Positions 47,732-60,654 of a stretch of DNA of 64,000 nt are shown here, one piece after another. Source of the DNA: an uncultured Bacilli bacterium (GTDB lineage: Bacteria > Bacillota_I > Bacilli_A > RF39 > UBA660); NCBI GenBank assembly GCA_947588685.1, contig CANPYM010000004.1, positions 1 to 64,000 of the forward strand. The letters run 5' to 3'. How positions within the stretch are numbered: the stretch's first letter is position 1; every line of letters begins with the position of its first letter. The notes below the pieces were generated by a model that did not search any database, had not been told where the DNA came from, and was given only the letters and a program-made list of their open reading frames with translations. Both the position numbers and the translations under genes were made by a program.

Positions 47732-50700
47732 ATGAAAAATTTTAAAGAATTAGACAAACGCCCTGTTAGTGAAGTTGAAGATAGTATTAGAGCTTCTTGG
47801 GGTAGTATCAATGATATGCATAATAAACAAGTAGAAATGCATAAGGATGATGAGACTTTTGTCTTCTATGATGGGCCTGCCTTTGCTAATGGGTTCCCAG
47901 GCCTACATCATATGGTTAGTAAAAACCTTAAAGATGCCGTAACTAAATACCAAGTTATGAATGGTAAGAAAGTTATTCGTAAAATCGGTTGGGATACACA
48001 TGGCTTACCAATTGAAAATCACGTTGAGAAAAAACTTGGTATTTCATCTAAAAAAGAGATTGAAGAATTAGGTGTAGCTAAGTTTAATGAAGAATGCCGT
48101 CATAGTGTTCGGGAAAATGAATCAGCCTTTACTGATTTAACTAGTAAAATGGGTCAATTCTTTGATGTTGAACATCCATATTTAACTTATAAGAATGAAT
48201 ACATTGAAACCGAATGGTGGATTTTAAAACAGATGTATGAAAAAGATATGTTCTATGAAGGAACAAGGGTTGTACCTTATTGTCCACACTGTGGAACAGG
48301 GCTAGCTAGTCATGAGGTTGCGCAAAACTATCAAACTGATACCGCTATTACTGTTTATGTACCATTTAAAAAGAAAGACGAAGATGTATATTTCTTAGTT
48401 TGGACAACAACCCCTTGGACTTTAATTGCCAATGTCGCTTTATGTGTTCATCCTGATGAAGATTATGTTTTAGCTGAATCTAAAGGTCATAAGTTTATCT
48501 TAGCTAAAGCTTTACTTAGCCAAGTTTTAGGTGATGAAGCAACTGTTTTAGAAACATATAAAGGTAAAGATTTAGAATATGTTGAATATGAACAATTAAT
48601 TCCATCTTTTGATGTTGATAAAAAAGCTTTCTATGTAACGTGTGATGAATATGTAACGATGGAAGATGGTACGGGTATCGTTCATATTGCTCCAGCCTTT
48701 GGTGAGGATGATGCTAATGTCGGTAAGAAATATGATCTTCCATACTTAAATCCGGTTGGTAAAGATGGTTGCTACGTCGGGGGAATGTGGGATGGCCGTT
48801 TTGTTCACGATGTTAATGAAGACGTTGTTGAATATTTAAAGGCTAACGATAAGTTATTCCGTCGTCAAAAGATTAGCCACGAATATCCACATTGCTGGCG
48901 ATGTGATACACCACTTATCTATTATTCAATGCCAAGTTATTATATTAAAGTAAGTGAGATGACAGATGATCTTGTTAAGGCTAACGCTGAAGTTAATTGG
49001 TATCCAGCACACGTTGGTGAGAAAAGATTTGCTAACTGGTTAGCTAATGCTAGAGATTGGAATGTCTCACGGAGTCGTTATTGGGGTAGTCCAATCCCAT
49101 ACTTTAAGTGTGAATGTGGCTATAATCATATGGTTGGTTCGATTGCCGAATTAAAAGAAATGGCTACTAAAGGAATTGGTGATGACTTTGATTTACATAA
49201 ACCATATATTGATGAAGTTCATCTAAAATGTCCAAAATGTGGTGGGGAAATGACTAGAATACCAGATGTTTTGGATTGTTGGTTTGACTCTGGTTCTATG
49301 CCTTTTGCCCAATATCATTACCCATTTGAGAATAAAGAATTATGGGAAAGCCAATTCCCAGCTGATTTTATCTGTGAAGGAATCGATCAAACTAGAGGTT
49401 GGTTTTACACTTTACTTATCATTTCTGTCTTTGTCAAGGGTGTCTCACCATTTAAGAATGTTCTAGTAAACGATTTATTACTCGATGCTGAAGGTAAGAA
49501 AATGAGTAAATCACGTGGTAACATTGTCGAACCATTTACAACCATTAAAGACTATGGTGCTGACACAGTTAGATTCTATCTTCTTTATGTCTCACCAGTA
49601 TGGACGCCATTAAAGTTTGATATGGCTGGTTTAAAAGAAGTTTATTCAAAGTTCTTTAACCCATTAAAGAATACATATAGCTTCTTTGCTATGTACGCTA
49701 ATATCGATGCAATCGATACGGATGAATGCAATATTGAATATAGTAAAAGAGAAGAAATTGACCGGTGGTTATTATCTAAATATAATAAACTAGTTCGGGA
49801 TGTTAGAGCTGATTTTGATGAATATGATTTAAATAAAGTTGTTCATCATCTAGCTAACTTTGTATCTGATGATTTATCTAACTGGTATATTAGACGTAAT
49901 CGTAACCGTTTCTGGGGCAGTGAATTAGATGATTCTAAGAAGAGTGTTTACCGGACAACTTATGAAGTATTAACGAGCTTAGCTAAGTTAATCGCTCCAA
50001 TCACCCCATTCTTATCTGAGGAATTATATCGTAATTTAACTGGTGAAGAATCTGTTCATTTTGCTAGTTATCCTGTATGTGATGAGTCTTTAATTGATGA
50101 ACACGTTGAAGAAAGAATGGATCTTGTAAGAAGCTTAATTTCCGTTGGCCGTTTTGTTCGGGAAGAGACAAAAATTAAAGTTCGTCAACCACTTAAAGAA
50201 GCTCTAATTGATGGTAAAAATAAAGATTTAATTGAAGATTTAGTACCTTTAATTAGTGAAGAGTTAAATATTAAAGAAGTTCTATTTGTCGATGATTTAA
50301 ATGAATATATGAATATTTCTTTAAAACCTAACTTCAAAGAAGTGGGTAAAGTTTTAGGTTCTCTTATGAAAGAGTTCCAAGAAAAACTTGCATCTTTAAG
50401 CTTAGATGAAGTTAATCTTCTTCAAAAAGGCGAGACTATCAAGATGACTTTAGGTGGAGAGGAAAAAGAGATCACTCCTAATATGATTGATATTCGTATT
50501 TCTAGCAAGGAAGGCTTTAATGTCGGTATGGAAAACAATAATTTTATGATTATTGATACAACTTTAACTGATGACTTAATTTTAGAAGGTATTGCTAGAG
50601 AACTTGTTTCCAAAGTTCAAAACTTAAGAAAACAAAGTGATTTTGAAATAACCGATCGCATTAAACTATATTATCATAGTGATGATTTAGTTAATGAAGC

Positions 50701-50827
50701 TATCAATAACTTCAAAGACTTCATTATGGGAGAAACTTTATCTTTAGAGTTAAATGAAAGTGATGACGCTAAAGAAGAGTTTGATTTAAATGGTCATACT
50801 TGCTTAATTAAAATTGAAAAAGCTTAA
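47732..50827 (+). CDS. ileS: Isoleucine-tRNA ligase
   Basis: 1031 aa, the long archaeal/eukaryal-like type. The HIGH-equivalent is in ANGFPGLHHMVSKNLKD with a GLHH core, and KMSKSRGN is near residue 590. WTTTPWTL marks the editing CP1 domain. The anticodon-binding domain (RRNRNRFW) and a long C-terminus follow. Regulated by the upstream T-box. AAAGGAGTGA ribosome site. Confidence 0.96.
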   Translation: MKNFKELDKRPVSEVEDSIRASWGSINDMHNKQVEMHKDDETFVFYDGPAFANGFPGLHHMVSKNLKDAVTKYQVMNGKKVIRKIGWDTHGLPIENHVEKKLGISSKKEIEELGVAKFNEECRHSVRENESAFTDLTSKMGQFFDVEHPYLTYKNEYIETEWWILKQMYEKDMFYEGTRVVPYCPHCGTGLASHEVAQNYQTDTAITVYVPFKKKDEDVYFLVWTTTPWTLIANVALCVHPDEDYVLAESKGHKFILAKALLSQVLGDEATVLETYKGKDLEYVEYEQLIPSFDVDKKAFYVTCDEYVTMEDGTGIVHIAPAFGEDDANVGKKYDLPYLNPVGKDGCYVGGMWDGRFVHDVNEDVVEYLKANDKLFRRQKISHEYPHCWRCDTPLIYYSMPSYYIKVSEMTDDLVKANAEVNWYPAHVGEKRFANWLANARDWNVSRSRYWGSPIPYFKCECGYNHMVGSIAELKEMATKGIGDDFDLHKPYIDEVHLKCPKCGGEMTRIPDVLDCWFDSGSMPFAQYHYPFENKELWESQFPADFICEGIDQTRGWFYTLLIISVFVKGVSPFKNVLVNDLLLDAEGKKMSKSRGNIVEPFTTIKDYGADTVRFYLLYVSPVWTPLKFDMAGLKEVYSKFFNPLKNTYSFFAMYANIDAIDTDECNIEYSKREEIDRWLLSKYNKLVRDVRADFDEYDLNKVVHHLANFVSDDLSNWYIRRNRNRFWGSELDDSKKSVYRTTYEVLTSLAKLIAPITPFLSEELYRNLTGEESVHFASYPVCDESLIDEHVEERMDLVRSLISVGRFVREETKIKVRQPLKEALIDGKNKDLIEDLVPLISEELNIKEVLFVDDLNEYMNISLKPNFKEVGKVLGSLMKEFQEKLASLSLDEVNLLQKGETIKMTLGGEEKEITPNMIDIRISSKEGFNVGMENNNFMIIDTTLTDDLILEGIARELVSKVQNLRKQSDFEITDRIKLYYHSDDLVNEAINNFKDFIMGETLSLELNESDDAKEEFDLNGHTCLIKIEKA

Positions 50828-51187: not shown

Positions 51188-54100
51188 ATGCTGAAAAGAA
51201 GAAAAATTAAAAGAAAATGGATAAATATTTCTCTAGCAATTCTTTTAGTAGCGCTTATTTTAACAGGTACGGGGATAGTGGTTAATGTCACTAATTTTTT
51301 AAGTGGTCAAAAGTTAAGTGGTAATAACTTTGGTAATCGTTTAGTTGATCCTAATACAATGGATTCATATAAAGACGAATTATTGAATGATAAGAATGGA
51401 TCACGTTATGCTGGAAGAATTTGGTCGGATAAGACTACCCTTTTAGATAAAGTTGATCTTGATATGGAAACAGATGGAATCTCTAAAACAATTAATGGCA
51501 ATTCAGAGTTCATTCAAGTCTTTTCTACTTTAGGAAGTAGTGAGCAAAAGGTTGATGTAATTAAAAATCCATTAGATTTGGTAATTGCGATTGATTTGTC
51601 ATCTTCAATGGGGCGTGATTCTGTCGATGATGGTTGGACACCGGAGGATCAAAATATTAGACTTTCTCACTCCCGAATTTATGCTACTGTTCAGGCTGTT
51701 AATGAAGCTATTGATGCTTTAATGGAGAAAAATCCTGAAAATCGTATTGCGGTTATTGGATATGGCGCTAATGCGACGGTCTTACTACCTTTAGGGCAAT
51801 ATAAGCGAAATGAGAAAGCTGATTATATAACAATTGAAGGTCTTCGTAGCGTTTTTGGTGATAATCCTAATGCTGATGGAAAGTTTACTTATCAAGCTGA
51901 TTGTTTTTTTGAACTTTCAATCAATGCTTTAAAGAAAAATGGGAATACTTATGATCCAATTCAAAAAAAGATTACTAATCATCCTGATGTTGTTAGTGGA
52001 AATGGGGCTCAAGAAACAATTGGCTTTCTTACTAATATGCAAGGTGGCATTTATCTTGGCCTTAATGAATTAACTTCAACCGAAGAAGCTACATATACAA
52101 CAGAACAAAATGGTAAAAGAATAACTATTGCAAGAATACCTGCCATCTTTATTATGACTGATGGTGGTTCTAATTTTGCCTTTAGAAAAGAAGGCGATAA
52201 TCCTAAAATACCTGATAATAAAGGTGATGAATGGTATAACGTTTATATCCCTGAACCAAGCCTTGCCGATCAATATATTTATTTTGGTTATCCTGATGCA
52301 AACGCTAGTGGTGTTTTATACTCTAATGATTCAAGTATTGATGGCGCACCAGGTATTATCTTAGAAAACTTGCTAACTTCTTCATATATGAAGTTAAAAG
52401 TTGAAAAACATTATACAGCTTTACAAAAGAAGGCTGGAATTAGTGATGCTAAAGCAAAACTTAATGTTCAAACGATTGGTGTTGATTTAAAAGATACACC
52501 AGCTTGGGCAAGATCAAGATTGTATATTTCATTGGATCCTGAAAATTATTTTAAAGAAGATTTAACTACTGATAATGATAAGTTCCTTTCTGAAACAGAA
52601 ATTGAAACAGTTATGAAAGATACTTTAGATAGTTGGAATATTTTGAAGCAAAAACAAAGTACCAAAGTTAAAATAGGTTTTATGCAAAAGCCAAAAGATC
52701 CTGATAAATATATAAATATTGCGCCAATTCCAGAAGAAGGTATCGGTTCTGGTGAAGAGAAGATAACGATGGATGAGGTTATTGAAAATATTAATTATGC
52801 TGATAATTTTAGTGATATATCTAGTAATGGTGGTCAACTAGAACAGTTATTCCTTAATGTTATTCAGAACCTTGATGGTGAGGCTTCTAGTCCAATTAGT
52901 GGAACTAACGAAGCTGGTGTTAGCGATTCTTTAATGTATTCAGACCCAATGGGTAAATATATGGAAATTAAAAGAAATGGTCTCACCATTGATGGCGAAA
53001 AGTATGATATGAGCTTACTTTTGTTTGGTAAATTACATAATATGCGTAAAGCTGCCGTTTATGATTATACATTCAATAGCACCCACAGAGGTCCAAATCA
53101 TAACAGTGATGATATGGCTTTAGGCTTTACTAGTGGTTGGTATGATAAAGAAGGAAATTATCTAGAAGATGGTGGATCTTGGGATAAGGGTGATACTTAT
53201 TATGCTGATGTTACCCAAGTTCAAAAATATATTCCAACTTTAGATGAGTCAAGTAATATTACCCCAAAACAAAAGAAAACTATTTATACTTTGTATAGTT
53301 TTGTTGATAAAGAAGACGAAGAACAAATTAATCCATCATATGAAGATGAAAGCGTCAAATATAAAGTTAATGATATTCGGGTTTGGACAGAGTATACGGG
53401 TAATTATGTCGATGAAGATCCAAGCGCTAACCCTAACTTAGGTTTCGATGAAGCTTTATATGTTAATATTCCAACGACAGCTTTACCACTTCAAATGGTT
53501 AAACTATATGTTGAAAGTGATGGCAGCATTTCTGATTATCAAACGAATTTAAATAACTATATAGCCTCAACACCACTTCGTTTATTTTATAGTGTTGGTG
53601 TTTCATCACAAGTTATGACTGAAGATGGCTTAGATCTTGATTTAGCTAAAATAAATCAAGAATACATTCAAAAAAATAAAGTTAATGACACAATTAGATT
53701 TTATGCCAATTATTATAGTAATACGAAGTATGATGGTTATTTAACTGATACTGAGGTAGAACGAACAAGGGGAGATGCTAGTGTTAGTTTTTCACCAAGT
53801 GCTACTAATCGTTATTATACATATCAAAAGCCATTACCATTATATGAAATGGCTATCAGTGATATACCGGATGAAAATGGCTTATATAAATCTCTTGAAT
53901 TAGGTACTAAAGAAGAATACGAATTATTTAAAAGTACCCATAAAACAATATCTAATAGTTCATCATTTGATGATAATAAATGGTATTATATCGTTGTTGA
54001 TTATTATATGCCAGGAAAAAGTGAAGCTATGCATTTAGCTGTTCCAAGAGAAGGTAAAGAGTTTGGCTCTGGTATCGGTGATGGAACTATTAAAAAGGGT

Positions 54101-57100
54101 GAATATTTAGAGTGGTATAGTGAAAAGACTGATACTTCGGCTACCTTTGATGCTTCCGAGGAAGCACCAAGTGATGCAGATGATTATGTTATTGCTACGC
54201 GTCCTGGTGGTTTAAGAGTCGGCGATTTAGCGCAAAATCTAAGAGGTAAGACGAATAATGCAACCCAAACAGCTTATAATTATTATTTACCAACGATAAG
54301 TTCATCAACAAGTGGCTTTAAGACGCGCGATAATAATGTTATTATTAATATTTTCTTAGGAAATAATGGTCGTTTGGATGTTAATGATTCTCTTATGATG
54401 ATTGCTAAAGAAGTAAAGACTGATACATTCAGTGAAAAGACTATCGATAGATCACGTGATTATCAATTTGAAGTTAAAATTGATGGCCATGAAGGGGATT
54501 ATAGTGCGATTAAAATGTATAAAAACCCTTATAGTAATGAATGGCAACTTCGCCTTAGTACCATTGATATCCTAACTGATAATGATGGTTTCTTACAAGA
54601 TAAGGATACGAAGTTATATGTTTATGAAGATGGTGGCCAACAGTATTACGTTTATATCGGTGATAATGAAATAGATGGTGATACCGGTGGCGATGATGTT
54701 TTTAGAGTATATTCAGCTCCTGATAATGATAATCACATTGAACTAACGAAATCGGGAATGACAACTTATGTAACCGATCCAAATACGATTGATGGCGCTA
54801 CTGCATTAAATAAATATAAAGCGGTTGATGATAATCATACTTTAGGCTCAATTGATTTTTGGATTGATAAAGTATACTTAATTCCAACCAATATTGTTGA
54901 TGAAAAAACTTGGAATCATTCATTAGAAGGTTATAAAACATTAACAGAGTTTGTTGTGGCACATTTGGATTCTATGAAAAAGGGTGTTGATGAATTAACA
55001 ACATCATATAAAACAGAAACAACATATTTAACAACGACCCTTAAATTTGGTTATACTGCTCAAAACAAACCAGAAACAAAACCAAATAGTTGGACCGATG
55101 ATGAATGGGATAGTCAAAAAGAACATATTGCTAAATTAGTTTTAAAAGATAATGAAGGGATTATGTTATCAGGACTAAAATCCGGCGTAAACTATGAGAC
55201 TGTAGAAGAGATAACAAATAAAGATAATAAAGAAGGATATTATTTTGAAGAGATTAAACTAGGTGAAGAAGATATGGCCACGATAACTGATAAGACGGTT
55301 AAAGGAAGAGTAAACGCAAATTATATTGATGAAGTAGAATACATTAACCGCTATTATGCACCGACTAGTTTAGCTATTAAAAAGACCGTTAGTGGTTTAT
55401 TAGGTGAGAAAGAAAAAGACTGGACGTTTGATCTTACTATTACCTTACCACCTTCTGCTGTCATTCTTGATAGTTATGATTATCATTATGATGTAATTGA
55501 TGGTGTTACAAAAAGAGCTGATGGTAAGATAACTTTTGAAAGTCTTACTGACAATCATTATTTAGCTCATCTATCTATTAAACATGGTGAGACACTTGTA
55601 ATTGAAGGTCTTCCTGAAGGAACAACCTATGAAGTTAGTGAAAATGATGCTAATCAGAATGGATATGTAACAACATCATTAAATGAAGTAGGTACACTAA
55701 GGCCTACTCAAACTGATGTAAGTTTTGAAAATAGTAAAATTGCTAAAAGCGATTTAACAATTACTAAAGAAGTTCAGGGCTTGTTAGGCGATAAAGAAAA
55801 AGAATGGGAATTTGAAGTTACTTTAAAGCCAAGCATAGAACAAGACTTCCCAACGAATTATGTCTATACTGGTACTAAGAATGGTACATTGGAATTAACT
55901 CCAAAAGAAGATGCTTATGTTGGTAAAATAACTTTGAAACACAATGATACAATTACTATTAAAGATATTCCTGAAAATACAACTTATGAAATAAAAGAGT
56001 TAGATGCTTCAAAGGATGGATACATTAGTAATGCTCAAAATGCAACCGGTCTTATCAAGGGCGAAGGCGTTTATGAAGTTCGCTTTACGAATATTAAATA
56101 TGAACGTCATAGTCTTACTATATCTAAAGAAGTAACTGGTAGCGCTGGTGATAAGAATAAAAATTGGAAGTTTAAAATCGTCTTCACACCAGATACAGAT
56201 GTCATTTTTGATAAAAGCTATCCATATGATGGTGGTACTTTAGAGCTAACGGAAAAAGATGGAAAGTATACAGGTGAAATAACTTTAAGACATAACGAGA
56301 GTATAACAATTAAAAATATTCCAGAACGAACTAATTATGACATTGAAGAAGTAGAAGCTAATGCAAACGATTATCAGACATTTATAACAGGTAATCAAAG
56401 TGGAATTATGAATGATGATGTGACCGTTAAATATACAAATCGTAAATTATCAAAACAAGATTTAACGATATCTAAAGAAGTAACGGGAGCATGGGCTAAT
56501 AAAGATAAAGAGTGGACTTTTACAGTTAAACTTACGCCTAGTAAAGATGTTTATCTAAATGGTTTTTATCATTATGAAGGCAGTAAAGAAGGCGAGATGG
56601 AGTTAACTAATAATTCGGGTATCTATACAGGTAAAATTACTTTAAAAAGTGGGGAGAGTATAACACTTAAAGAAATACCTGAAGGAACAGCTTACGAAGT
56701 TAGCGAAGATGACGCCAATACTGACGGGTATACGACAAGAGTAACAGGGGATACTAAAGGTGTATTAACTTTCAATACCCCAACGCCACATATAGCTTTT
56801 GAAAATATTAAATTATCAAAGCATAGTTTAACAATATCAAAAGAAGTAGCTGGTGGCGCCAGTGATCCTGATAAAGAATGGACTTTTAGCCTTACTTTAA
56901 CTAGTAAAGATGGTGTTACACTATTAGATAGCTATCCTATTTTAGGTGGTAATACAGCCAGTGAAGTAAGTGTTATTGATGAAAAACGTTTAACACTAGA
57001 AAAAGAAAGTGATACTAAAGCTAAAGCAACCTTTAAATTAAAGGGTGGTCAATCGATAACTATCAATGATTTACCAGAAGGTACAACTTATGAGGTTAAA

Positions 57101-58423
57101 GAACTAGAAGCCAATACTGAAGGCTATGACACTAGAATTACTGGTGATGAAAAAGGTGTTTTAGAAAATGTGGATACCAAGTCCGTTAAGTATGTTAACC
57201 ATAAAGCACTTAAATACGATCTATCTATTGGTAAAGTTGTAAAAGGTGGAGCTGGTGAAAAAGATGCATCTTGGACCTTTAATATTACATTGACACCAAT
57301 GGATGGGGAAGAACTATTAACTACTTATCTTGTTGAGGGTATTGAGCCAAGTCTTATCAGTTTAACCCGTACCGAAGATGGCTATAAAGGCTCATTATCA
57401 TTAAAACATGGTGATACAGCAACGATTAAAGGTATACCTGAAAATACGGGTTTTAAAATTGAAGAAGAAGAAGCCAATAAAAATGGATATATAACTGAAG
57501 TAAATAACCCTAATACAGGTATACTAGATAAGCAGTTAGATCCAATAATCTTTACTAATACTAAACTAGCTAAATATAATTTAACAATTGTTAAAACTGT
57601 TAAAGGTAATTTGGGTGACAAAGATAAAGAGTGGACCTTTAAAGTTTTATTAACCCCACCAACAATTAAAGATTTAGATAAAGAATATGCTTACACTAAA
57701 GAAGATGCTCACGGAACTAATTTAGATGGTAAGATGTCTTTAAATAAAGTATCAGATCATTATGAGGGTGAGATAAGCATAAAAGATCAAGAAAAAATAA
57801 CCATTAAAGATTTGCCAGAAGGAGCGACATATCAAGTTGTGGAACAAGGTGCTGAAGATGATGGTTATAAGGTAGCCACCGGTAACGATAATGGTATTTT
57901 AAATGATCATCAAATGGTAAAAGTTACTAATACCAAAGTTTCATATCATGATTTGCAAATTGAATCGCATTTAAAGGGTAATAATTCAGATCCTGAAATC
58001 GAATGGGATGTTGAAGTAACATTAACACCATCTTCTGATAGTGGATTAGAAGATAGTTATGTATGGGTTGATGATGATGGTGTATCACATCTTCTTCCAT
58101 TAACACCAAACGATGATGGAACTTATACAGGCCACTTATCTTTAAAAGGTAATAGTCATGGAACAATTAAGGATTTACCATATGGAACAACCTATGAAGT
58201 TAAAGTTCAAAATGCTAATCAAGACGGTCATAAGACAACCATTGATGAGAATAGTGGTGTTTTATCAGAAAATATGGAGGTTACTTTTACAAATGAGCGT
58301 AATTTGAAAATACCAAATACCTTAGATGATATTATGAAATATATAATTATCTTTGTTATGGCTCTAATAATTAGTAGCTGTGGTCTATATTTATATTTAC
58401 AAAAAAGAGGAACTAACAATTAA
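51188..58423 (+). CDS. Giant cell-surface adhesin: VWA domain plus eight Cna_B-like repeats
   Basis: 2411 aa. N-terminal signal segment at 12-34. VWA domain from about 125 with MIDAS DLSSS (Asp136) and IFIMTDGGS. A middle region of about 800 residues is unrecognised. Eight repeats of about 110-125 aa run from about 1395 to 2370, each starting like LTISKEVTGSAGDKNK-W and containing ITIK-IPEGTTYEV-E. The C-terminal IPNTLDD, hydrophobic helix and KRG tail look like a variant sorting signal. Probably a cell-wall-linked pilin-tip or adhesin protein. Confidence 0.85.
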   Translation: MLKRRKIKRKWINISLAILLVALILTGTGIVVNVTNFLSGQKLSGNNFGNRLVDPNTMDSYKDELLNDKNGSRYAGRIWSDKTTLLDKVDLDMETDGISKTINGNSEFIQVFSTLGSSEQKVDVIKNPLDLVIAIDLSSSMGRDSVDDGWTPEDQNIRLSHSRIYATVQAVNEAIDALMEKNPENRIAVIGYGANATVLLPLGQYKRNEKADYITIEGLRSVFGDNPNADGKFTYQADCFFELSINALKKNGNTYDPIQKKITNHPDVVSGNGAQETIGFLTNMQGGIYLGLNELTSTEEATYTTEQNGKRITIARIPAIFIMTDGGSNFAFRKEGDNPKIPDNKGDEWYNVYIPEPSLADQYIYFGYPDANASGVLYSNDSSIDGAPGIILENLLTSSYMKLKVEKHYTALQKKAGISDAKAKLNVQTIGVDLKDTPAWARSRLYISLDPENYFKEDLTTDNDKFLSETEIETVMKDTLDSWNILKQKQSTKVKIGFMQKPKDPDKYINIAPIPEEGIGSGEEKITMDEVIENINYADNFSDISSNGGQLEQLFLNVIQNLDGEASSPISGTNEAGVSDSLMYSDPMGKYMEIKRNGLTIDGEKYDMSLLLFGKLHNMRKAAVYDYTFNSTHRGPNHNSDDMALGFTSGWYDKEGNYLEDGGSWDKGDTYYADVTQVQKYIPTLDESSNITPKQKKTIYTLYSFVDKEDEEQINPSYEDESVKYKVNDIRVWTEYTGNYVDEDPSANPNLGFDEALYVNIPTTALPLQMVKLYVESDGSISDYQTNLNNYIASTPLRLFYSVGVSSQVMTEDGLDLDLAKINQEYIQKNKVNDTIRFYANYYSNTKYDGYLTDTEVERTRGDASVSFSPSATNRYYTYQKPLPLYEMAISDIPDENGLYKSLELGTKEEYELFKSTHKTISNSSSFDDNKWYYIVVDYYMPGKSEAMHLAVPREGKEFGSGIGDGTIKKGEYLEWYSEKTDTSATFDASEEAPSDADDYVIATRPGGLRVGDLAQNLRGKTNNATQTAYNYYLPTISSSTSGFKTRDNNVIINIFLGNNGRLDVNDSLMMIAKEVKTDTFSEKTIDRSRDYQFEVKIDGHEGDYSAIKMYKNPYSNEWQLRLSTIDILTDNDGFLQDKDTKLYVYEDGGQQYYVYIGDNEIDGDTGGDDVFRVYSAPDNDNHIELTKSGMTTYVTDPNTIDGATALNKYKAVDDNHTLGSIDFWIDKVYLIPTNIVDEKTWNHSLEGYKTLTEFVVAHLDSMKKGVDELTTSYKTETTYLTTTLKFGYTAQNKPETKPNSWTDDEWDSQKEHIAKLVLKDNEGIMLSGLKSGVNYETVEEITNKDNKEGYYFEEIKLGEEDMATITDKTVKGRVNANYIDEVEYINRYYAPTSLAIKKTVSGLLGEKEKDWTFDLTITLPPSAVILDSYDYHYDVIDGVTKRADGKITFESLTDNHYLAHLSIKHGETLVIEGLPEGTTYEVSENDANQNGYVTTSLNEVGTLRPTQTDVSFENSKIAKSDLTITKEVQGLLGDKEKEWEFEVTLKPSIEQDFPTNYVYTGTKNGTLELTPKEDAYVGKITLKHNDTITIKDIPENTTYEIKELDASKDGYISNAQNATGLIKGEGVYEVRFTNIKYERHSLTISKEVTGSAGDKNKNWKFKIVFTPDTDVIFDKSYPYDGGTLELTEKDGKYTGEITLRHNESITIKNIPERTNYDIEEVEANANDYQTFITGNQSGIMNDDVTVKYTNRKLSKQDLTISKEVTGAWANKDKEWTFTVKLTPSKDVYLNGFYHYEGSKEGEMELTNNSGIYTGKITLKSGESITLKEIPEGTAYEVSEDDANTDGYTTRVTGDTKGVLTFNTPTPHIAFENIKLSKHSLTISKEVAGGASDPDKEWTFSLTLTSKDGVTLLDSYPILGGNTASEVSVIDEKRLTLEKESDTKAKATFKLKGGQSITINDLPEGTTYEVKELEANTEGYDTRITGDEKGVLENVDTKSVKYVNHKALKYDLSIGKVVKGGAGEKDASWTFNITLTPMDGEELLTTYLVEGIEPSLISLTRTEDGYKGSLSLKHGDTATIKGIPENTGFKIEEEEANKNGYITEVNNPNTGILDKQLDPIIFTNTKLAKYNLTIVKTVKGNLGDKDKEWTFKVLLTPPTIKDLDKEYAYTKEDAHGTNLDGKMSLNKVSDHYEGEISIKDQEKITIKDLPEGATYQVVEQGAEDDGYKVATGNDNGILNDHQMVKVTNTKVSYHDLQIESHLKGNNSDPEIEWDVEVTLTPSSDSGLEDSYVWVDDDGVSHLLPLTPNDDGTYTGHLSLKGNSHGTIKDLPYGTTYEVKVQNANQDGHKTTIDENSGVLSENMEVTFTNERNLKIPNTLDDIMKYIIIFVMALIISSCGLYLYLQKRGTNN
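55370..58303 (+). repeat. Eight tandem Cna_B-like domain repeats in the adhesin
   Basis: Repeat starts at about residues 1395, 1520, 1640, 1756, 1877, 2015, 2134 and 2255, recognised by L-T-I-x-K-x-V-x-G and E-W-T-F-x-V-x-L-T-P. They are diverged from one another. Each has a conserved Lys in the first strand and Glu in the EGTTYEV turn, compatible with isopeptide-type cross-links. The bond is inferred. Boundaries are approximate. Confidence 0.7.
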
Positions 58424-58435
58424 GTTCCTTTTTTA
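58403..58435 (+). terminator. Adhesin gene terminator
   Basis: AGGAACT / AGTTCCT stem overlapping the stop codon, followed by T6. It also abuts the end of the convergent small membrane protein gene. Confidence 0.7.
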
Positions 58436-58810
58436 AATATTTGGATTTTCGACATCTGCTAGCGTTTCTGTCGAAGATAAAGAAATAACATATAGAGCAA
58501 TAACTTCGGAGATAACCACTAAAATTGAGGCAGCTATCTGTAATTCATAACTTTTAAGACTATCGCCTCTTTTTTTAGCGATATTATATAACTGATAGTT
58601 GATATATAAAAAGAAGACGCCGGATAGTAAAATGACGACGCGATTAAAAGTTGTTAACTTTAAAGTATTTTTATTACTTAAGATCTTTGGGCGCTTTTGT
58701 AAACCTCGCTTTTGATTATAAGTGATGACAATCGCAATGATTGTTGTAACAATTGATATAACAAGGGTTATAATTTGGTAGTTAACATACTTAATTTCTT
58801 CTTCCTTCAT
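58433..58810 (-). CDS. Small three-helix membrane protein, unknown
   Basis: 125 aa. Hydrophobic segments at about 10-30, 52-72 and 88-110 with a basic loop (QKRGLQKRPKIL). No recognised family. Convergent with the adhesin and divergent from lepA. GAAGGAAGAAG-like purine tract before the ATG. Confidence 0.65.
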   Translation of the reverse strand: MKEEEIKYVNYQIITLVISIVTTIIAIVITYNQKRGLQKRPKILSNKNTLKLTTFNRVVILLSGVFFLYINYQLYNIAKKRGDSLKSYELQIAASILVVISEVIALYVISLSSTETLADVENPNI

Positions 58811-58854
58811 AATACAATATATGTTTTTTATGATATAATAACTATGGTGGTTTG

Positions 58855-60654
58855 ATGAAACAGAATAATATTAGAAATTTCTCAATCATTGCGCATATCG
58901 ACCATGGTAAAAGTACCTTAGCTGATCGTATCCTTGAAAAAACGGGAACGATTAGTCAAAGAGAAATGAAAGATCAATTACTTGATAGTATGGATATTGA
59001 AAGAGAACGTGGTATTACTATTAAGTTAAACGCTGTCAGGTTAAAATATAATTATAAAGGTGAAGATTATATCCTTCATCTTATTGACACTCCAGGTCAT
59101 GTTGATTTTACCTATGAAGTATCTAGATCGCTTGCGGCTTGTGAAGGAGCTTTATTAGTTGTTGATGCAGCTCAAGGAATTGAAGCTCAAACCCTAGCTA
59201 ATTTATATCAAGCCTTAGATAACAATTTAACGATTATTCCAGTTATTAATAAAATTGATTTACCTAATGCTGATATTGCTAAAGTCACAGCTGAGCTTGT
59301 TAACACTATCGGTTTTGATGAAGATGAAATTATTTTAGTTAGTGCGAAGACCGGTGTTGGGGTTGATGAGTTATTAGCGTCTATCATTGAGCGTATTCCT
59401 GCCCCTAAAGGGAATAATGATGAAGCTTTGCAGGCTTTAATTTTTGATAGTTATTTTGATGCCTACCGGGGCATTGTAACCCTTGTTAGAGTTATTAATG
59501 GTCATATTAAAGTTGGCGATAAAATAAAAATGATGGCGACTAATGCCAGTTATGATGTAACAGAACTAGGCTTTAATAGTCCTTATGAACATAAAGTTGA
59601 TACCCTTTTAGCGGGTGAGGTTGGTTATTTATGCGCTAGTATTAAAAGTATTGAAGACGTTAAAGTTGGCGATACGATTACGCTAGATGCTAACCCTGCT
59701 AAAAAACCGCTAGCTGGTTATAAACCAATGAAATCGATGGTTTTTTGTGGATTATATCCAATTGAATCAAGCAAGTTTCCACTTCTAAGAGAAGCTTTAG
59801 AAAAATTAAAACTAAATGATGCCTCTTTGTCTTTTGAGCCGGAAACGTCTCAAGCATTGGGATTCGGTTTTCGATGTGGTTTCTTAGGATTACTGCATAT
59901 GGAAATCATTGAAGAAAGACTAGAGCGCGAGTTTAATATTGAACTAATTGCGACGAGCCCATCAGTTGTGTATGAAGTTGAATTAACAGATAAAACACTA
60001 GTGATGGTTGATAGTCCAGCTAAACTTCCAGACCGGGCTAGAATTGCCGAAATAAGAGAACCTTATATTAAGACCAATATTTTTGTTCCTAGTGAATATA
60101 TTGGACCAATTATGGAGTTATGTCAAAATAAACGGGGTAATTATTTATCAATGGAATATCTTGATGCGACTAGAGTTAATATTCATTATGAGATACCTTT
60201 ATCAGAAATTGTGTATGATTTTTTTGATAAATTAAAAAGTTATACCAAAGGGTATGCTTCATTTGACTATGAATTAGTTGGCTATAAACCAAGTAATCTT
60301 GTTAAAATGGATATATTATTAAATGGGGAAGCGGTTGATGCTTTAAGTACCATTGTCCATAAGGATTTCGCTTATAAAAGAGGTAAGGCTATTGTCGAAA
60401 GCTTAAGAAAACTTATCCCAAGACAACAGTTTGAAATACCTATTCAAGCAGTTATTGGGACTAAAGCTATTGCGCGGGCTGACATTAAAGCGATGCGTAA
60501 AAATGTCTTAGCTAAATGTTATGGCGGCGATGTATCTCGTAAAAGAAAATTACTAGAAAAACAAAAAGAAGGAAAGAAACGAATGAAGATGGTTGGCAGT
60601 GTTGAAGTGCCACAAGAAGCATTCTTATCTGTCCTTAGTATGGAAGATGAATAG
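58855..60654 (+). CDS. lepA: Elongation factor 4 (LepA)
   Basis: 599 aa. G1 [10 protein letters not shown]2 RERGITIK, G3 DTPGHVDF and G4 NKIDLP are intact, and the LepA-specific C-terminal domain follows ([43 protein letters not shown]). It acts on stalled or mistranslocated ribosomes. ATG at 58855 preferred over the preceding TTG, since GGTGG lies upstream. First of a lepA, multi-HTH, hemW operon. Confidence 0.97.

Follow-up and report, generated by a model that had tools for sequence, protein, structure and literature searches.

A putative stand-alone fibrillar adhesin with an exchanged VWA head, a DUF7601 stalk and a class B-type sorting signal in an uncultured Bacilli bacterium

A solitary gene encodes a giant modular protein

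We analysed a window of 64,000 nucleotides (contig CANPYM010000004.1, positions 1 to 64,000) from an uncultured Bacilli bacterium whose assembly comprises 1.16 Mb in 30 contigs and is 88.7% complete. On the plus strand, an open reading frame of 2,411 amino acids extends from an ATG at position 51188 to a stop at 58423 with no internal stop. The frame is intact, and the coordinates and length given in the original prediction were exact. The gene stands alone between an ileS-like gene (47732-50827) and a lepA-like gene (58852-60654). A promoter search yielded 7 candidates versus 4.0 in shuffled sequences (s.d. 1.7), no clear excess. On the minus strand, a terminator-like hairpin (58408-58429) lies just past a small minus-strand frame (58433-58810) and overlaps the 3' end of the adhesin gene.

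The protein begins with a putative signal peptide or membrane segment (amino acids 1-41; 51188-51310) in which positive charges precede a hydrophobic run. There follow a neck, a VWA head, a middle module, eight DUF7601 repeats, and an IPNTLDD tail with a membrane segment and Lys/Arg residues. A single long frame therefore carries the four elements of a sortase-anchored fibrillar adhesin: a signal peptide, an adhesive head, a repetitive stalk and a C-terminal sorting signal. We rejected carriage of the gene by phage or plasmid because the middle module had no relatives among IMG/VR contigs or plasmids, and the head plus middle had none among phage genomes.

A conserved neck and a predicted VWA head

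The neck motif, DPNTMDSY...NGSRYAGRIWSDK (amino acids 54-82; 51347-51433), consists of near-invariant alignment columns common to the whole family. It is followed by the head (amino acids 100-581; 51485-52930), on the strength of which the protein had been called a VWA adhesin. Pfam VWA_2 matched amino acids 131-204 slightly below threshold (24.4 bits versus a cut-off of 27; E = 5e-5). An AlphaFold model of amino acids 42-601, built from an alignment of 50 sequences, had a pLDDT of 80, and a Foldseek search of the PDB with the head model returned PilB (E = 4e-7), Mfa5 (6e-6) and SpaC (2.5e-5), all of them VWA adhesins. Sequence identity to the matched structures is 10-14% over the head, and large insertions presumably account for the low full-chain TM-scores. 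Judged by the modelled fold, the sub-threshold Pfam match marks a real VWA domain. The MIDAS is complete, with a DxSxS motif (D136-L-S138-S-S140; 51593-51607), Thr282 (52031-52033) and Asp325 in a TDGG sequence (52160-52162). D136, S138, S140, T282 and D325 show at least 90% conservation across 50 diverse heads, with no variation at Thr282 and Asp325. Since a complete MIDAS is kept in heads this diverse, the head likely functions in metal-dependent binding. The VWA assignment is upheld on both counts, fold and MIDAS.

The middle module has no known domain

The middle module (amino acids 582-1393; 52931-55366) spans about 810 residues, is conserved in the family and has no known domain. Pfam and NCBIfam searches of amino acids ~205 to 1393 found none, save for one DUF7601-like stretch (55055-55354) with a sub-threshold score of 20.7 bits. 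A model of amino acids 575-1459, based on 36 sequences, was confident (pLDDT 81). Foldseek with the whole-chain middle model returned only pilin/CnaB-type matches, with TM-scores on the query of at most 0.12, and we therefore rejected a known fold for this module. The matches probably stem from its C-terminal end: the sequence profile of the middle reaches the T-antigen and Cpa over its last ~60 positions only. In a viral structure library, nothing matched the middle at E <= 0.001. Thus, the claim of a roughly 800-residue middle without a recognised domain stands, with the refinement that its C-terminal end alone resembles streptococcal CnaB pilins.

The stalk is built from eight DUF7601 repeats, seven with an intact isopeptide triad

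Eight Cna_B-like repeats had been predicted, and the stalk (amino acids 1394-2371) contains exactly eight full copies of DUF7601 (PF24547), all above the Pfam cut-off, with a whole-protein E of 2e-174. DUF7601 is a CnaB-like domain for which an isopeptide bond has been predicted, with the triad Lys190-Glu263-Asn305 in B8QYD3 (PMC12617251). Sequence comparison shows homology of the repeats to the solved, isopeptide-bonded streptococcal pilins 8f70, 6bbw, 3b2m and 4bug. Aligning the repeats located the corresponding residues of the isopeptide triads, for which the original prediction had proposed structure prediction. The Lys-Glu-Asn triad is complete in repeat 1 (55367-55738; K1399-E1485-N1515), repeat 2 (55751-56098; K1527-E1604-N1635), repeat 3 (56108-56446; K1647-E1721-N1751), repeat 4 (56459-56809; K1763-E1840-N1873), repeat 5 (56822-57205; K1885-E1972-N2004), repeat 6 (57218-57565; K2016-E2093-N2124) and repeat 7 (57578-57937; K2136-E2219-N2248). 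It is lost in the wall-proximal repeat 8 (57947-58300), where Ser and Val replace Lys and Glu (S2260-V2340-N2369). Loss in the last repeat is also seen in a giant paralogue on contig C6 of the same genome and is absent in another on contig C3. The complete triad is present in 117 of the 131 repeats aligned from giants across the genus; column by column, Lys is conserved in 123 of 131, Glu in 124 of 131 and Asn in 125 of 127. By this pattern, the seven triad-bearing repeats are predicted to hold isopeptide bonds.

G123, a related genome of the genus, encodes a 2696-aa relative (L106:937-9027) that lacks the VWA-middle part, contains 18 DUF7601-like repeats and has LPNTGD as its tail. What looked like a 24,350-aa frame in the same genome proved to be a run of masked N and was rejected.

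The sorting signal belongs to a genome-wide set of xPxTxD tails

The C-terminal tail (...KIPNTLDDIMKYIIIFVMALIISSCGLYLYLQKRGTNN) carries the motif I-P-N-T-L-D at amino acids 2375-2380 (58310-58327), followed by a membrane segment and a Lys/Arg tail (58331-58420). These are the features of a class B sortase substrate: an xPxTx motif with a downstream Asp, a membrane segment and a positively charged end. An HMM built from four such tails recovered those four at E <1e-26 and three more at E up to 0.003, which shows that the IPNTLD-type tail exceeds chance. Eight xPxTxD tails of common layout, that of the adhesin among them, emerged from a search covering nearly the whole genome. Asp occupies the sixth place in 8/8, while the P1' residue varies (L, I, G, H, Y). 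Such tails are also present on the giant paralogues of C6 (2385 aa; IPNTID) and C3 (2538 aa; IPLTGD), and IPNTLD itself recurs in a fibro-slime protein of 1002 aa that contains three DUF7601 domains (L019:6302-9310, contig C7). The sorting-type tail described originally is thus joined by seven others of the same layout.

Elsewhere on C7 (41500-45500), a 362-aa open frame ending in SPKTLD matches the last part of a giant of 2359 aa in a sister genome (G121); in the source genome this gene seems to be truncated or broken. Weak tail matches in two other genomes of the genus, G118 and G119, were rejected because they are not sorting signals.

A class B sortase is the best candidate for the anchoring enzyme

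The search for sortases that had been proposed together with the tail survey returned four: two of class C, a small sortase on contig C2 and one of class B. The class C enzymes lie in a pilus operon (L020:8256-15529, contig C22) with proteins ending in LPETGG (1083 aa), LPSTGG and LPQTGQ, and the small sortase adjoins a thioester protein with a VPDTGT tail. With the LPxTG proteins assigned to class C and the VPDTGT tail to its own adjoining sortase, class B fits the eight xPxTxD proteins by elimination, and we infer that these eight, the adhesin included, pair with a class B sortase. The altered sortase specificity suggested at the outset accordingly finds a counterpart in a class B enzyme and a tail set distinct from the LPxTG set. 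The result named as refuting the original prediction, a genome devoid of sortases and of other proteins with this kind of tail, did not occur. Two characterised systems offer parallels. Bacillus anthracis SrtB needs Asp at P2', its largest activity losses occurring without P5 or P2' Asp (PMC11987632), and in Clostridioides difficile SrtB is the only sortase, a housekeeping enzyme that recognises (S/P)PXTG and has several adhesins as substrates (PMC4155245).

The class B sortase (SrtB) is encoded on contig C8 (L022:5272-6087) in an apparent mraZ-rsmH-ftsL-pbp-srtB division (dcw) cluster. It scores 180.6 bits against TIGR03064 (cut-off 153.75) and has the active-site His (YGH) and Cys (TLSTC). 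By alignment to S. aureus SrtB, Lys stands in place of the catalytic Arg, a change that could mean low activity. The substitution is not peculiar to this genome: Lys and a loop one residue shorter occur in each of the ten short SrtBs belonging to this type (that on C8 and those of nine other genomes of the genus, L163-L171), whereas the majority of the family's class B sortases keep the Arg. In a tree of class B sortases, 12 of 13 Lys forms fall in one clade of 15. A literature search on the Arg-to-Lys change in sortases returned nothing to the point.

The short SrtB adjoins pbp in seven genomes of the genus, and three others carry a close relative of it elsewhere. Of 12 genomes sampled from the genus, 10 have the short type; G118 and G119 lack it and also lack giants and xPxTxD tails. 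This co-absence favours the short SrtB as partner, in a small sample. Three genomes (G117, G120 and G126) have the short type with no giant like the adhesin, and G123 has only a remote giant. In the wider family, proteins with NPxTxD tails (NPxTGD, NPxTSD and others) directly adjoin short class B sortases. A further class B sortase is found in most of the genus. It is about 500 aa long and has retained the catalytic Arg; the copy in G121 (L174:4528-7860) has a long N-terminal extension and lies beside a 598-aa thioester/SpaA-like protein with an IPVTAD tail. Its locus is absent from the 88.7%-complete source assembly together with xseA and nusB, so the absence is probably missing data. On the present sequence evidence, an unusual class B sortase probably anchors the adhesin to the wall.

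The head is exchanged independently of the middle and stalk

Pairwise comparisons revealed opposite patterns of divergence in head and body. The C6 paralogue of the source genome (G000) has its counterpart on contig C18 of G121; this is one gene in two organisms that hardly differ (lepA 97%, secA 96%). The neck and stalk of the two copies are 94-95% identical at the nucleotide level, with a stalk dS of 0.12, while the heads have a dS of ~1 and share 37% protein identity. Conversely, the adhesin and a giant on contig C12 of G127 are 96% identical in nucleotides over head amino acids 100-400 (dS 0.12), while their bodies are 71-78% identical with a dS of about 1 (stalk 0.97); lepA and secA have values of 1.1-1.35. 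For 19 giants, AU tests rejected the head tree on middle and stalk data and vice versa (p from 1e-9 to 1e-92), and the disagreement between the middle tree and the stalk tree is much smaller. In these trees the C6 head groups with those of L195, L197, L201, L206 and L207 (100% support) and its body with L184. Taken together, the opposite divergence of head and stalk and the rejection of a common tree establish that the VWA head is a module recombined between paralogues and species, independently of the middle and stalk.

Exchange also affects other parts of the protein. The middle is gene-converted between paralogues: a tract at amino acids ~1075-1400 (54410-55387) is ~95% identical in nucleotides to the C6 paralogue (dS 0.17) with flanks at 60-70%, and the same tract is common to G121. 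Single stalk repeats are replaced too. Between the C6 and C18 genes (L017 and L091), one repeat at amino acids ~1850-1925 has 52-72% nucleotide identity in stalks that are otherwise 91-100% identical.

The closest relatives carry rabbit-associated names

A scan of 84,980 species genomes (GTDB) with the middle alignment returned 152 relatives. The best 79 of these, by our count from 62 MAGs, all bear isolate names of the form "Lapin-...", lapin being French for rabbit. They are labelled Bacilli, Clostridia, Oscillospiraceae, Lachnospiraceae, Eggerthellaceae and, in one case, Muribaculaceae, which is perhaps a binning error. By our estimate from accession letters, the collection contains perhaps 1,100 Lapin MAGs, about 1%. 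Of 395 sampled genomes of the class, just four matched: the source genome, two that are apparently Lapin MAGs, as judged by protein size and contig number, and one with a remote partial homologue. The isolate names, as opposed to metadata, point to a rabbit host for the relatives and, among the best 79 of the 152, suggest restriction of the adhesin family to rabbits. A genome from another family of the class (G225) has a remote homologue (L338), a 1178-aa open frame that combines a VWA head with part of the middle and carries the tail LPTTGL.

A model for the adhesin and its alternatives

We favour the view, with a probability of roughly 0.7, that the protein is a stand-alone, wall-anchored fibrillar adhesin in which an SrtB-anchored, isopeptide-locked stalk would display an exchangeable VWA head. 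The protein would be exported via its signal peptide. A class B sortase, for which the C8 SrtB is the best candidate, would then cut after the Thr of [INS]-P-x-T-x-D and link it to peptidoglycan. The eight CnaB-like domains, with seven intact triads, would form a stiff stalk bearing the middle and head, and the complete MIDAS would bind a ligand, which in the rabbit hindgut is probably a surface of the host or of food particles. In the observed recombination between paralogues and species, the neck and middle likely serve as homologous flanks, and swapping the head could change binding while stalk and anchor stay constant.

The original prediction likened the domain order to pilus-tip adhesins, and a tip pilin added to a shaft by a class C sortase has some support. 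The combination of VWA and CnaB domains is typical of tips such as SpaC, PitA and RrgA; SpaC is a structural match to the head, VWA pilus proteins are among the sequence matches of the repeats, and the genome has a genuine pilus operon. That operon is on another contig, though, and comprises LPxTG pilins and an LPETGG protein of 1083 aa of its own, with signals (LPETGG, LPSTGG, LPQTGQ) unlike IPNTLD. The adhesin gene, solitary among housekeeping genes, has no operon with a shaft pilin and class C sortase, and a stalk of 1,000 residues would be needless at a pilus tip. The likeness thus does not carry over to the gene's setting, and we consider a tip pilin highly improbable. Faulty metagenome assembly, in which chimeric contigs of co-existing strains would have produced the head mosaics, is scarcely more probable. 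All sequences are MAGs, and closely related giants do co-exist in one sample. Against this, independent samples (Lapin-004, Lapin-018 and the source assembly) display the same pattern of neck and stalk at 92-100% with a differing head, the C6 head groups with heads of other MAGs at full support, the conversion tract recurs in G000 and G121, and all the frames are open.

Two further alternatives concern anchoring. The P1' Leu, which departs from canonical motifs, and the Lys in the candidate SrtB would both suit a tail that acts as a membrane anchor only, with no sortase involved. Yet eight proteins of the genome, of which several are otherwise unrelated, retain P, T and D, as do the relatives throughout, and the membrane segment and positive tail are as in sorting signals; we judge this reading improbable. 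A stronger contender, though still unlikely in our view, is that the ~500-aa class B sortase anchors the protein and the division-cluster SrtB has another role. The larger enzyme keeps the catalytic Arg, its neighbour's IPVTAD tail is also of the xPxTxD form, and it is widespread in the genus, its locus simply missing from the source assembly. It is present, however, in G118 and G119, which lack giants and their tails, and in the wider family NPxTxD tails stand beside the short enzymes. An extension of our favoured reading, in which the family would be a host-restricted lagomorph-gut adhesin system spanning several classes, with interchangeable heads and a Lys-type, dcw-encoded SrtB coupling display to division, is likewise speculative and doubtful.

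Comparison with known systems

The kind of protein is already known; what is new is the middle module, the pairing of xPxTxD tails with SrtB, the modular heads and the distribution. Near-identical stalks with unrelated heads, and near-identical heads on diverged stalks in different species, provide a clear example from nature of heads being exchanged as modules. If the rabbit restriction is true, the family would provide a direct handle on the host specificity of gut bacteria. The Lys-for-Arg class B sortases call into question an active-site residue held to be essential.

Among described adhesins, SpaC of L. rhamnosus GG, PitA and RrgA share the VWA head with MIDAS, the CnaB-like domains and a sortase signal, and PilB of S. 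sanguinis shares the head and CnaB-like domains. Unlike these four, the present protein has no pilus operon, has a middle of ~810 aa without a known fold and eight repeats of its own, and ends in xPxTxD and not LPxTG. Its stalk domain family and Lys-Glu-Asn triad are those of the S. pyogenes T-antigen FctA/Spy0128 and of Cpa (DUF7601/DUF5979), which have few such domains per subunit where this protein has eight in tandem. As read from its sequence, it resembles fibrillar adhesins (CshA-like and others) in being a long monomeric protein with an adhesive head, an isopeptide stalk and a wall anchor. Head domain shuffling has been described as a principle for that group (PMC12617251, PMC10952558); the present protein differs from its other members in having a VWA head and in that exchange is seen between nearly identical stalks. 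Finally, the SrtB systems of B. anthracis (NPKTGD, with Asp at P2') and C. difficile ((S/P)PXTG, with several adhesins as substrates) likewise combine a class B sortase with a non-LPXTG motif, whereas here P1' is free, the sortase gene lies in a dcw cluster, and Lys replaces the catalytic Arg.
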